A stretch of 53,413 bases of DNA, taken from the IMG/VR virus record IMGVR_UViG_3300023116_000063, positions 1-53,413 of that record; one strand, given 5' to 3'. This DNA is from a virus. The notes beneath the pieces are model-generated. The model was given only the letters and a program-made list of their open reading frames with translations, made no database searches and was not told where the DNA came from. The translations under genes and the position numbers were made by a program. This document shows, one piece after another, positions 16,105 to 20,183 of this stretch. How positions within the stretch are numbered: position 1 is the stretch's first letter; the number at the start of each line of letters is the position of its first letter.

Positions 16105-18099
16105 TTAACCTCCCACTTCACTAAATGCAACGCCAGTTCTTACGGCGATGAAGTTTAGTGTAATAAAGTTGATTGAACGAGCAGGCTTGATGTAAATATC
16201 ACCAATGAATTCATTTCTGTCAATGACTTCACCTGTGTTATTTGTTTCATCACAAACCACCTTAAAGTCTGTAATACCTCTACGTCCTTGCACATCTCTA
16301 AGGAATGGTTCTACCAAATTCAAGAATTGTGCTCTTGTAAATGTATCGTTGAACTCAAAGAGTTGGAATTTCGATGCAGTTGCAATTGCCTTTTCAAGAA
16401 CGAGGAACAATCTACGCACGTTAATTCTATCAAACGCAGAAGGTCTAGAAAGAGCAGTCTTGTCACCAAACAAGAATGTTCCTTGGCCTGACTGTGTAAT
16501 AACAGGGTTAATACGAGCAGGATAAAGAATATCCCTTTGTGCCTTGTTAGGGTTGTATGCAAGTCTTACTGCACCACGGATTTGTCCTCTGTTGTAACCA
16601 GCAGGGGAGAACCATGCGTCAGCGACTTGGTCAGTGTTTGCACACAAACCAGCAATGTCACCATTCAATGGTACATATCTGTAAACATCATTGTATCTGT
16701 CGTACATATACTTGTATCCACTATCGAATACTGCATATGAAGAAGATGCAAGGTTGTCAAAGAATGCTTCGACATTTGTAGTTTGAGTGATTGAACTTGT
16801 GATACCAACAACATCTGCTCTACGAGGAGAGATGAAACCAACACAATCTTTACGAGCCTCACAGAGGTCGATAATCATGGTTGCGTGTGTAACACCATCT
16901 GTTCCAGCTGGACAAGTACCAGCCATCACAAGGTTTACATCAACTGTATCAACATCAGCAAACAACTGATATGCAGTGTCCAATTCACCGATTGTTGGGT
17001 TAGCGTCTACACCACCAGAAAGTGTTGAAGTGATAACACCAGCGTCACCAGTAGAAGAGGTGTAAGTTGAACCAGAAGCAATGTCTGTTCCAGCATCAGA
17101 TAGTGAACCGTCGTGATCCATCCATCTTACGAAAGAAGAACCTGTGTTTACTACGTTTGCATAGAAGTTTGTTCCACCTTGTGCAGTTTTAGCAGATGCA
17201 GCCTGAGATACGAATGGATATGTTTCCATTGCAGCATTACCTCTTTGTCCGGCCAAGTCAGCGTCAAAACCAGTAACAGTACCAGCAGTATCGTAAACTA
17301 CGATATGCATTTCGTCACCAGAAATTCCTCTGTCTGTTGCCCAAGGTGATGTGCCAGGCGCACCATCAAACAAGTCATAGTACTTCCAACGTCTACGAAC
17401 AGTAGTTGCAGCAGTCAAGGCAGATTTAAGTCCACCACCGTTAGGATTGTCAAGTTGTCTGATTGTTAGATCGTCAGTTGCAACAGCAGTAACTTCATAC
17501 TGTTGTCCGTCTGCTTCTGCAAAGTAAACAATATCTCCAACTGAGAACAAGTTACCACCGTCACCAGCAGAACCACCACCGTTGTCAATTCCAACAGTAG
17601 TTGCACCAGCAGCAGGCGTACCTGTGGTTACACCAAGTGTACCAGCAGCACCAGAGAATGATTGTTCGTATGCAGTTGCACTTGAACAGATTGATACAGC
17701 AACACCGTTACCGTATGTGCCTGGGAACTTTGCAGCCCAGTTACCGACAGAACCTTGTCCAGCGGCATAGTTAGTTTCATAATCAAAATCGTTTTTAATC
17801 TTCAATCCAGAACCGTCAGCGGTAGCGTTTACAGCAGATGAAGCATCTGCACGAACTACACGAAGAGCGTTTCCGTATTGAAGAAAGTTAGCGGCAGTAA
17901 ACCAAGTTTCAAAATTACTTGCATTTGGTTTACCAAAGACTTGTACAAGATCTTGTTCTGAAGCAATCGGAATGATTTCTTCAACTGGCCCTTGTGGGAA
18001 ACCAGCAGCAATTGCACCAATAGATGTTGCAACAGCAGGAACAATATTGGTCAAGTCGATCTCTTTGACGAGTACGCCAGGGGATACTTGAAATGCCAT
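16105..18099 (-). CDS. gp18: gp18 tail sheath protein
   Basis: A 664-residue contractile sheath protein, T4 gp18 homologue (659). The opening VSPGVLVKEIDLTNIVPAVA and TSIGAIAAGFPQGPVEEI is the typical sheath N-terminus, and the C-terminal domain includes RINVRRLFLVLEKAIATAS and FKVVCDETNN, conserved in sheath proteins of contractile systems. The middle third is a variable protruding domain rich in Gly/Ala/Thr. A TATAAATA late promoter lies 58 bases upstream. Confidence 0.97.
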   Translation of the reverse strand: MAFQVSPGVLVKEIDLTNIVPAVATSIGAIAAGFPQGPVEEIIPIASEQDLVQVFGKPNASNFETWFTAANFLQYGNALRVVRADASSAVNATADGSGLKIKNDFDYETNYAAGQGSVGNWAAKFPGTYGNGVAVSICSSATAYEQSFSGAAGTLGVTTGTPAAGATTVGIDNGGGSAGDGGNLFSVGDIVYFAEADGQQYEVTAVATDDLTIRQLDNPNGGGLKSALTAATTVRRRWKYYDLFDGAPGTSPWATDRGISGDEMHIVVYDTAGTVTGFDADLAGQRGNAAMETYPFVSQAASAKTAQGGTNFYANVVNTGSSFVRWMDHDGSLSDAGTDIASGSTYTSSTGDAGVITSTLSGGVDANPTIGELDTAYQLFADVDTVDVNLVMAGTCPAGTDGVTHATMIIDLCEARKDCVGFISPRRADVVGITSSITQTTNVEAFFDNLASSSYAVFDSGYKYMYDRYNDVYRYVPLNGDIAGLCANTDQVADAWFSPAGYNRGQIRGAVRLAYNPNKAQRDILYPARINPVITQSGQGTFLFGDKTALSRPSAFDRINVRRLFLVLEKAIATASKFQLFEFNDTFTRAQFLNLVEPFLRDVQGRRGITDFKVVCDETNNTGEVIDRNEFIGDIYIKPARSINFITLNFIAVRTGVAFSEVGG

Positions 18100-18156
18100 C
18101 TTTGTTTTCTCCTTTATGGATTCATTATAATTATTAAGTTTCCAAACTTACATGAA

Positions 18157-18164
18157 TATTTATA
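18157..18164 (-). promoter_or_regulatory. Late promoter TATAAATA for gp18-gp19
   Basis: Exact TATAAATA on the minus strand, 58 bases before the gp18 ATG. It diverges from a plus-strand CATAAATA at 18207-18214. Confidence 0.8.
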
Positions 18165-18206
18165 AAAAACCTTTTCTACACTTGATTTTTTATAGGTTAA
18201 GCAACA

Positions 18207-18214
18207 CATAAATA
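18207..18214 (+). promoter_or_regulatory. Plus-strand late-promoter-like CATAAATA before the HNH-like gene
   Basis: CATAAATA on the plus strand ends six bases before the ATG at 18220. In T4 the start site lies about that far from the element, so the transcript would begin at or near the ATG itself. No ribosome-binding site is visible. Confidence 0.5.
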
Positions 18215-18219
18215 GTTTT

Positions 18220-18519
18220 ATGTCGGAGCATTATCAGAAATACAAAGAAACCATAAAAAAGGTATCACAACGCAATTATAGAGCTCGCAAGATATGGGTT
18301 AATGAATATCTTGGTAAAAAGTCCTGTAATTACTGTGGTGAATCTGAAACTGCTTGTCTCCAATTTTATCCTCACGAGAGGAAAATACGCACTCTAACAA
18401 AAAGAAAAGGATTGAACGAGGAATCTAGAACAGAAGTCAAAGATTTAATCAATCAATCCAAAGTAGTTTGTGCAAACTGCTTCCTTAAATTAGAAAACGA
18501 TATTATTGATATTATGTAG
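18220..18519 (+). CDS. Small HNH-like zinc protein, the only plus-strand gene
   Basis: A 99-residue basic protein with two Cys pairs (CNYC 36-39, CANC 84-87) around LQFYPHERK, matching the layout of small HNH endonuclease-like proteins in which a first zinc pair is followed by a FDH-type motif and a second CxxC. The usual His after the second pair is Phe here (CANCFLK), so it may be inactive as a nuclease or act as a DNA-binding protein. It lies opposite to all neighbours, between gp17 and gp18, a position suited to a mobile homing-type gene. In-frame stop TAA precedes the ATG, fixing the start. Confidence 0.72.
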   Translation: MSEHYQKYKETIKKVSQRNYRARKIWVNEYLGKKSCNYCGESETACLQFYPHERKIRTLTKRKGLNEESRTEVKDLINQSKVVCANCFLKLENDIIDIM

Positions 18520-18533
18520 GTATTTTAAGATTT

Positions 18534-20183
18534 CTACCAATCTGAATCGTATGAACGAACCACTGGACTCCACCGTGTTCCATACTCATCTACAATAGTT
18601 TCTCCGTATCCATTATCATTCAACCCATCATCAAAGAACCCAAAAGGAGCCATATCCTGTTCTAATTGATGTTGTTGTTCTAAGAACATTCTAGCACGAA
18701 TATCATCGTCAGTTAGTTCTTTAAAGTATGTCTGTTCTACCAACCACGCAAAGATAACACAACACATAGCTAAGTCATCTGTATGTCCATCTTCTGCCTC
18801 AAAGGATTGTCCTTTAAGAATAAAGGTAGAGAACTCATTGATTAAGTCGTAATCATTGATAATGAGTTTATCTGTTTCAATAATCTGTTTAAGGTTAGAA
18901 CATCCTAGTTTTTTAACTGCCTTTGTTGTTCTTACCCCCAATTGTGCTTTTCCACCACTAAAACCACCACCAATCACCTGACCTGCACGACCACGCATAC
19001 TTGCCATAATAAGGTTCTCATACTCCAAGTCAAACTGTAGTGCAGTTGCAACTTGTTCACCGATATCATTCACCTCAATCAAAATATAGGCTTGATTGTA
19101 AGCCTTAGATACATCATGGATAATGTTGGGAAAGAGTAGAGGTTTGATTTCGTTATTACGATATTTTGCAACAATCTTATAAGGAACTGTAGATACATCA
19201 AAGACAATAAATGCAGAGTAGTCATTATTTGTGCCTCTTGCAACGTCAGCAACCACAACATATGTACCACCATCATTTGGTTTCTCATACATATCCAATC
19301 CAGCGTTTGACTGAATAGGATTCTGAAAGGCCATTGACTTAATCTTTGAAGGATTAATAAGTGTATTTGCAGAACCCAAAAACTCACAGTCAAACTCTCT
19401 TCTGAACTGTTCTTCAGAAGTATTTGCGATTGTCTCTGTTCGCCACTTTTCATCTCGGCCTGGCACTTGACTCCAGTGAACATCTATGATATTATACGAG
19501 TTTCTTTTGTTCTCTGCATCAACCCACAATTTGTAGAAAAGATTCATACCATTGGGTGTAGATACAATAATAACTTTTGTAGTTTTACCAGATGAGATTG
19601 TAGGATAAACAGAACTAAAGAAGTCCTCTGCTACGTTGTTTGGAACGAATGCAAATTCGTCCAAGAATATCATGTTGTAAGAACCACCACGAACAGCAGA
19701 TGAAGATGTAGAAGATGCAACAACCCTACTACCATTCTCTAAGTCTACTGAACCTTTGTTCCAAGACACCACGCCCTGTTGTAACCACTTAGGAAGATTC
19801 TCATATGCAAGTTGAAGTCTACCAAGAATGTCTCTTGCAGTCGCAGCCTTGTTGGCAAGGATTGCAACATTCATGTTAGGATTGAATAGAACGTAGTGAA
19901 GAATATAGGATACCATAGTCGTGGATTTACCAGACTGTCTTGGCATCTTACAGATAGTAAAACGATTGTCGTGGATTGTATCTACAATGTCCTCTTGAAA
20001 ATTATACATTTCAAAAGGAACAAGTCCTTCATCAAGCGATACGATTTTAATATAATTCTTGATAAAGTATATGGGATTTTCCATACACTTCTGGTATTCA
20101 AGAATTTGATTTTTCGTCCACTCTACAGGAACATTAGATTTTTTTAGTAGAGGATTTCCAAGGTAGTGATCATAAGTTTTCAT
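18534..20183 (-). CDS. gp17: gp17 terminase large subunit
   Basis: A 549-residue packaging motor of the T4 gp17 family. ATPase: Walker A MPRQSGKST (80-88), Walker B MIFLDEF (171-177) with catalytic Glu176, and coupling motif VSTPNGMN (208-215). Nuclease: Asp313 in VVADVARG, Glu370/Asp373 in ILIEVNDIG and HTDD (467-470). It cuts concatemers and pumps DNA into the prohead through gp20. The start overlaps the small gene upstream by 14 bases. Its gp16 partner is not adjacent but 1.7 kb upstream. Confidence 0.97.
   Translation of the reverse strand: MKTYDHYLGNPLLKKSNVPVEWTKNQILEYQKCMENPIYFIKNYIKIVSLDEGLVPFEMYNFQEDIVDTIHDNRFTICKMPRQSGKSTTMVSYILHYVLFNPNMNVAILANKAATARDILGRLQLAYENLPKWLQQGVVSWNKGSVDLENGSRVVASSTSSSAVRGGSYNMIFLDEFAFVPNNVAEDFFSSVYPTISSGKTTKVIIVSTPNGMNLFYKLWVDAENKRNSYNIIDVHWSQVPGRDEKWRTETIANTSEEQFRREFDCEFLGSANTLINPSKIKSMAFQNPIQSNAGLDMYEKPNDGGTYVVVADVARGTNNDYSAFIVFDVSTVPYKIVAKYRNNEIKPLLFPNIIHDVSKAYNQAYILIEVNDIGEQVATALQFDLEYENLIMASMRGRAGQVIGGGFSGGKAQLGVRTTKAVKKLGCSNLKQIIETDKLIINDYDLINEFSTFILKGQSFEAEDGHTDDLAMCCVIFAWLVEQTYFKELTDDDIRARMFLEQQHQLEQDMAPFGFFDDGLNDNGYGETIVDEYGTRWSPVVRSYDSDW

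Follow-up and report, generated by a model that had tools for sequence, protein, structure and literature searches.

Probable leaderless late genes and a predicted nuclease-dead HNH protein at a divergent late promoter in SAR11/OM43 T4-type phages

The window, by which we mean the whole 53.4 kb of an IMG/VR virus record, groups with the Melnitz-like (OM43 methylophage) T4-type phages. Its closest annotated relatives are the Methylophilales (OM43) phages Melnitz (Kyanoviridae), with 79.5% DNA identity across the gp18–gp17 stretch. Between gp17 and gp18 lies a small gene, here called hnh, which an earlier note on this DNA had described as a lone plus-strand gene; it is indeed the only clear gene on that strand of the window. 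The features of the locus are as follows.

16105..18099, minus strand: gp18, tail sheath, divergent neighbour of hnh
18100..18151, minus strand: predicted leader of the gp18 late mRNA, with a 5' hairpin (TAAGTTT/AAACTTA) and a Shine-Dalgarno GGAG before the ATG
18164..18157, minus strand: late box TATAAATA of gp18, diverging from the hnh box with 42 bases between the boxes
18189..18194, plus strand: conserved TTTATA, a candidate operator, 12 nt upstream of the hnh late box
18207..18214, plus strand: T4-type late box CATAAATA of hnh, separated from the ATG by 5 bases (GTTTT); predicted +1 at the A of the ATG
18220..18519, plus strand: hnh (ATG at 18220, stop TAG at 18517-18519), 99 aa, predicted nuclease-dead HNH-fold zinc protein between gp18 and gp17
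18534..20183, minus strand: gp17, terminase large subunit, convergent neighbour of hnh

In the stretch of Melnitz that aligns to the window (about 85.5-138.3 kb), the sole opposite-strand CDS besides hnh is a 31-aa ORF. The gene is present in four Melnitz records (77% aa identity) and in many IMG/VR contigs; one Melnitz record annotates it at the same position and in the same orientation as in the window, labelled hypothetical. It is absent from HTVC008M, Mosig and T4. When ten named or IMG/VR records were searched with a family profile, three matched: Melnitz, an IMG/VR contig (L160) and cyanophage P-TIM68. The last of these is a weak match (NC_028955.1, 154531-154821, plus strand; E 5.1e-5) and is not at the gp17/gp18 junction. 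Among prokaryote chromosomes, 53 stretches matched the search patterns, and tblastn showed none of them to be a relative of hnh; an Rfam search of window positions 17900-18700 gave no matches. A chance ORF is ruled out by the relatives in Melnitz and the IMG/VR contigs and by a median dN/dS of 0.10 (57 distinct close CDSs; 614 of 1596 pairs, those with dS 0.1-1, were used, and 101 were saturated).

Across the 53.4-kb window the pattern [CT]ATAAATA occurs once on the plus strand, as the hnh box CATAAATA, compared to 11 times on the minus strand. The earlier note had this element shortly before the ATG with no ribosome site, and we confirm both points: five bases separate box and ATG, and a Shine-Dalgarno-like motif is found neither in the window nor in any of 70 distinct 30-nt upstream stretches of relatives. 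Relatives were taken as at most the best 80 loci of each of several IMG/VR scans. Because of this cap, the sets lean to close relatives, and because loci overlap among scans, we express counts as distinct sequences. The late box stands exactly 5 nt before the hnh ATG in 111 of 115 distinct upstream-plus-protein sequences (YATAAATA in 105, CTAAATA in 6) and 7 nt before it in the other four (all YATAAATA); the window, its copy (L087), one further locus (L129) and a fusion locus described below (L393) were left out of this count. Per locus, with the window and its copy included, 266 of 276 have 5 nt and one has 7 nt; the remaining nine have CTAAATA at 5 nt once an upstream ATG is disregarded, and L129 has 5 nt by eye. 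The spacing holds down to proteins about half identical to that of the window, and the box is conserved above the level of the surrounding sequence.

T4 late boxes are 8 bp long and are numbered from -13 (PMC2988020, available portion). Such a box ends at -6, and +1 therefore falls on the A of the hnh ATG, so that the earlier claim of an element placed for an RNA start at the ATG stands as regards box placement, which is kept in the relatives, with the start itself predicted. With the +1 position carried over from T4, transcription would begin at the A of the AUG, and the mRNA would be translated leaderless, without a Shine-Dalgarno site. The four sequences with 7 nt may therefore have a 2-nt leader. 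The Melnitz annotation includes a late sigma factor and a coactivator. We also considered a hairpin that would hide the AUG in a longer RNA (ACATAAA/TTTATGT) and do not favor it, as by eye it looked weaker in relatives.

The arrangement had been presented as a lone oddity, which it is not: late boxes at 5 nt recur at a set of genes in these phages. We counted N[AC]TAAATA boxes against gene starts in whole phage genomes, scoring genes at 5 nt, at 0-4 nt and at 6-15 nt, respectively. HTVC008M has 11, 0 and 3 such genes, Mosig 6, 0 and 3, Melnitz 3, 2 and 0, T4 0, 0 and 4, and P-TIM68 1, 2 and 6; 14 permuted hexamers used as a control gave means of 0.00-0.43 genes at 5 nt. The strict box YATAAATA is found at 5 nt in 6 genes of HTVC008M, 3 of Mosig, 3 of Melnitz, none of T4 and 1 of P-TIM68. 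Matches to the raw pattern YATAAATANNNNNATG number 6 in HTVC008M, 4 in Mosig, 4 in Melnitz, 1 in T4, 1 in P-TIM68, 1 in G001, 3 in G002 and none in Bellamy, S-SSM7 or G003, while the reversed pattern gave a single match over all ten genomes together; the surplus matches in T4, Mosig and Melnitz lead into frames of only 6, 13 and 8 aa. The starts that we used are the depositors' own in 9 of the 11 HTVC008M genes and 5 of the 6 Mosig genes at 5 nt, that is, in all 14 that were compared. The single 5-nt case in P-TIM68 is at an annotated start and stands amid scatter, and we therefore do not extend the class to cyanophages.

Among the 5-nt genes of HTVC008M are those for phytanoyl dioxygenase, CsgF, a cyclase, the tail tape measure, the gp2 DNA-end protector, head completion and baseplate. 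The cyclase gene has its box at 5 nt in both Melnitz and HTVC008M, and gp2 has it there in Melnitz, HTVC008M and Mosig. Two further scans placed the gp2 box at 5 nt in 32 of 34 distinct sequences, with 8 nt in one of the others and no box in the last; eight loci were left out because the match started far into the query or an ATG was missing from the search. Late genes of Melnitz with the box at 5 nt have a ribosome site in none of three cases, compared to 15 of 15 (looser motif set) or 11 of 15 (strict set) for its YATAAATA genes at 16-43 nt. At HTVC008M (KC465899.1) 18916-18943, the divergent start codons of gp2 and the head-completion gene are separated by ∼27 bp; both genes have a late-type box 5 nt upstream of the ATG, and these boxes stand back to back.

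The hnh protein is matched to known HNH proteins by family profile and by predicted fold. All 55 aligned family members match the HNH endonuclease family phrog_2255, and an AlphaFold2 model (pLDDT 88.5) has a long N-terminal helix followed by strand-helix-helix-strand-helix, the order of elements in the beta-beta-alpha HNH fold. HNH endonucleases make up most of the named matches among the best listed from BFVD (top E 1.1e-4, TM 0.74). Pfam gave no HNH match for the window protein, NCBIfam nothing useful and Foldseek no PDB match at E<=0.001; the single match in a PDB sequence-profile search has E 0.24, and the best score in an aligned comparison of PDB folds, a weak Z of 3.5, is to an HNH nicking enzyme.

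The Cys pairs to which the earlier note drew attention (C36-x2-C39 and C84-x2-C87) are borne out, all four Cys being invariant in 107 of 107 distinct proteins. We mapped the active site by alignment with the HNH proteins of FelixO1, HGTV-1 and Riptide, which sets the D/H-H pair at Y50-P51 and the last His of H-N-H at F88. Residue 51, the catalytic His position, is Pro in all 107 proteins. The His of the PHERK motif (H52), previously taken for the HNH motif His, lies one residue beyond that position and is not conserved (H in 77, Y in 16, D in 11 and N in 3); it is not the catalytic His. Residue 50 is Y in 76, H in 22 and F in 9, and residue 88 is F in 54, Y in 44, H, E, W and K in 2 each and R in 1. 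The last His is therefore lacking as the note had said, with F88 at its place, but it is not lacking alone, because Pro51 replaces the catalytic His as well. With Pro51 and the four Cys invariant and the last His mostly lost, the nuclease site is thus gone and the zinc framework kept. We reject an active nuclease on the loss of the catalytic His position throughout the family; as far as sequence can tell, the product is a nuclease-dead protein derived from an HNH enzyme, and we infer that it binds zinc and DNA.

Presence or absence of hnh at the gp17/gp18 junction of relatives, a check that the note had proposed, was scored from gp17 searches. A query with gp17 of the window found hnh in 75 of its best 80 loci, with three junctions empty and two cut off; among the matches listed for an HTVC008M-type gp17, 9 of 73 complete junctions contain hnh and 64 are empty. 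A gp17 tree of 187 distinct junctions (371 sequences, less 101 duplicates, 54 with partial gp17 and 29 missing a neighbour) requires two presence/absence changes, compared to a mean of about 53 when states are shuffled. Occupied junctions form one side of this tree, with one empty group of three inside (L260, L269 and L270). Distances between hnh proteins follow those of gp17 (r 0.89 over 123 occupied rows, from a row set three short of that used for the tree; none of 500 permutations was as high). In the sole incongruent group, L175/L195, hnh is more distant than gp17 predicts, and some exchange of the gene is therefore possible. Mobile homing genes are recognized by a patchy distribution that is incongruent with that of their neighbours, which is not what we find for hnh; as read from these alignments, the pattern is one of domestication and vertical inheritance rather than current mobility.

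The distance between the divergent hnh and gp18 late promoters, earlier put at 43 bases, proved to be 42 bases between the two boxes, so that the claimed divergence is upheld. This gap is 40-44 bp in 73 of the 78 sequences with an exact gp18 box and 36 bp in the other five. Of 96 distinct sequences, 91 have TTTATA at a distance of 11-12 nt upstream from the hnh late box. This element reads TATAAA on the opposite strand and may therefore act as an operator, as a second, weak late box or as neither, and its conservation could also stem from neutral promoter constraints; by eye, the other two Melnitz genes with a box at 5 nt do not have it at the corresponding position. In the upstream regions of three relatives (L266, L273 and L275), an inverted repeat, TATATGCA-4 nt-TGCATATA, overlaps the hnh late box, its 4-nt centre being found in both orientations, CCAC and GTGG.

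On the gp18 side, the leader hairpin (window 18150-18135, minus strand) begins its stem no more than 3 nt from +1 in 29 of the 43 distinct leaders. The first 24 nt of the leader have a mean energy of -2.25, compared to -0.69 in mononucleotide shuffles. Some variants alter both arms, by eye.

One relative offers a natural fusion. At the gp17/gp18 junction of L393 (2588-3208, minus strand), the HNH-like domain is preceded in the same frame by a GIY-YIG-type domain, giving an ORF of 207 aa from the likely ATG (266 aa in the longest frame, from a TTG). The first ∼107 residues resemble GIY-YIG proteins, and the remainder is the HNH-like domain. By eye, the translation has the elements of the GIY-YIG core (VYYLW, YVG, R and E). 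The match to PF22945 (E 1.9e-4, 21.9 bits) is below the curated cut-off of 27; that to the GIY-YIG protein of PDB 9u75 has a whole-sequence E of 1.2e-4 over the core motifs, with 0.26 for the best single stretch, and the structure model of this half has a low pLDDT of about 50-60. Compared to a near-twin (L390; 95% DNA identity over gp17 and the HNH domain), 373 nt replace 41 nt just before the gene, and the fused version has, by eye, a leader with a Shine-Dalgarno-like AGGGA. The fusion is represented by one full locus, and a second copy would account for two fragments at contig ends from another sample. Because a nuclease-type domain is here attached to the hnh protein, this locus gives the best hint that the protein binds DNA.

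The earlier suggestion of a degenerate homing endonuclease that has been kept thus holds in several parts: the fold is HNH-derived, catalytic positions are lost and selection is purifying. Kinship with homing-type nucleases is supported by the HNH relatives found in tRNA clusters and by the GIY-YIG-type fusion. The ancestor at this site may have been an active homing endonuclease; all 107 distinct family proteins already lack the catalytic His. What we describe would be a homing-type nuclease fold that has been stripped of catalysis and retained, and that in one lineage has had a GIY-YIG-type domain attached to it.

With moderate confidence, we favor the explanation that hnh encodes a domesticated, nuclease-dead HNH protein, vertically inherited and made late from a leaderless mRNA, which is perhaps an autorepressor like I-TevI. 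The ancestral protein would have lost its nuclease active site, kept its structural zinc site and been passed on vertically at the gp17/gp18 junction. A gp55-type late RNA polymerase would transcribe the gene late, starting at the A of the AUG, and the mRNA would be translated leaderless, with no Shine-Dalgarno site. The protein may then bind the compact gp18/hnh divergent promoter, perhaps through the TTTATA-N12-YATAAATA block, and would limit its own late transcription and perhaps that of gp18. The functional part of this proposal, binding at the gp18/hnh promoter and limiting its own late transcription, we offer tentatively, as a possibility suggested by analogy and by one conserved box.

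More broadly, we consider it probable that SAR11/OM43 T4-type phages have a leaderless late regulon, to which belongs a domesticated, nuclease-dead HNH protein whose divergent late promoter spans ∼42 bp. A gp55-type late promoter would, on this reading, be set to one-base precision at gp2, cyclase, baseplate and neck genes and hnh, with other late genes retaining Shine-Dalgarno leaders, giving two translation classes inside one transcription class. T4 late transcription is a textbook system, and the 5-nt lock of the box is seen in marine T4-like phages, for gp2 over a wide divergence. If mapping confirms the starts, leaderless translation would be a late programme built into phages that infect streamlined hosts. 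The leaderless class could then sort late proteins by translation mode during host take-over, and leaderless starts would let divergent genes begin within tens of bases of each other, as at the ∼27-bp gp2/head-completion interval of HTVC008M. We found no earlier account of leaderless late genes in these phages in the portions of the open-licence PMC literature available to us: the word 'leaderless' occurs once each, in a cited title, in the available text of PMC9004378, PMC7892664 and PMC9516812 and not in that of PMC3014915, and the AR9 paper (PMC5312081) says in its available part that phage transcripts are often leaderless, and no more.

Four other explanations were weighed. The least unlikely is that the zinc protein binds RNA or acts in some other way, as a translation repressor or as a factor in host take-over or anti-defence, instead of being a DNA-binding regulator. 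A zinc-stabilised HNH-derived fold is re-usable for such roles, yet late timing and the divergent-promoter position fit local regulation better, and the natural fusion to a nuclease-type domain makes most sense with DNA binding. In HK97-type phages, HNH proteins adjoin the terminase, and their function there requires the nuclease residues. By analogy, hnh might encode an accessory to DNA packaging, a nuclease-dead partner of the terminase, which we regard as improbable: the gene adjoins and is co-inherited with gp17 and is late by promoter type, but it is on the strand opposite to gp17, it is absent from HTVC008M, Mosig, T4 and the in-clade lineage of L260, L269 and L270, and its product is missing the residues that the HK97 function requires.

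It is more doubtful still that transcription of hnh begins at a promoter farther upstream and yields a longer plus-strand RNA with a leader, CATAAATA being incidental or secondary. The conserved sequence upstream, TTTATA in 91 of 96 sequences, could reflect another start; against this, none of the 70 upstream stretches has a ribosome site, conservation of the late box exceeds that of the flanking sequence, its distance from the ATG is almost constant, and the 5-nt arrangement recurs in unrelated genes. Finally, an active HNH homing endonuclease spreading by cutting the empty gp17/gp18 junction is very improbable despite its HNH fold and homology, the existence of empty junctions (64 of 73 HTVC008M-type), the relatives in tRNA clusters and the distant hnh of L175/L195, since Pro holds the catalytic His position in 107 of 107 proteins, no more than 2 of the 107 have His at the last-His position, occupied junctions cluster on the gp17 tree (two changes) and hnh tracks gp17 (r 0.89).

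We now compare the favored explanation, a domesticated HNH protein made late from a leaderless mRNA, to known systems. Three cyanophages (L084, L085 and L086) have at the gp17/gp18 junction a Cys-pair gene of 74-76 aa annotated as 'endonuclease VII', which is co-directional with gp17 and gp18, unlike hnh. Its homology to hnh is unsupported: a forced alignment gave 16-18% identity for two of the proteins, and a Pfam search of all three at E<=0.1 matched no HNH model. By eye, the small protein is like the zinc portion at the N terminus of HNH endonucleases, that of FelixO1 for example. The HNH endonucleases of phrog_2255 and phrog_3106 (FelixO1 NP_944871.1, HGTV-1 gp89 and Streptomyces phage Riptide gp160) align over nearly the whole hnh protein and have the CxxC...CxxC framework and predicted fold in common with it. 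They have the D/H-H catalytic pair and an H after the last Cys pair, whereas the window protein has Y-P and F; their genes (L299, L300 and L301), with active-site residues kept, lie in tRNA gene clusters, and hnh lies between gp17 and gp18.

T4 late promoters, served by gp55, gp33 and gp45, have an 8-bp box like that of hnh, according to the available part of PMC2988020. In T4, however, the called gene starts nearest to a late box follow it by 12-14 nt and none by 5 nt, the distance at hnh. The mob genes of T4 are, like hnh, HNH-type ORFs that stand free between other genes of T4-type phages, and among the table rows listed in the available part of PMC2988022, the mobA row excepted, none is at gp17/gp18. 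Unlike them, hnh has lost its active site and is vertically kept.

A functional parallel that we draw is to I-TevI of T4, a GIY-YIG homing endonuclease with a DNA-binding half and a zinc finger, as described in the available portions of PMC2988022 and PMC3014915. The former also describes how I-TevI represses its own late promoter through an operator lying over it, for which the DNA-binding domain suffices without the nuclease. The I-TevI gene is located in an intron, its product is active and its ribosome site is sequestered by RNA structure, whereas hnh is free-standing, nuclease-dead and predicted to be leaderless. Yet both have a late promoter directly before the gene, the ability of the DNA-binding half of I-TevI to act without its nuclease is a likeness to nuclease-dead hnh, and the fusion in L393 resembles I-TevI in joining a GIY-YIG-type domain to a zinc domain.
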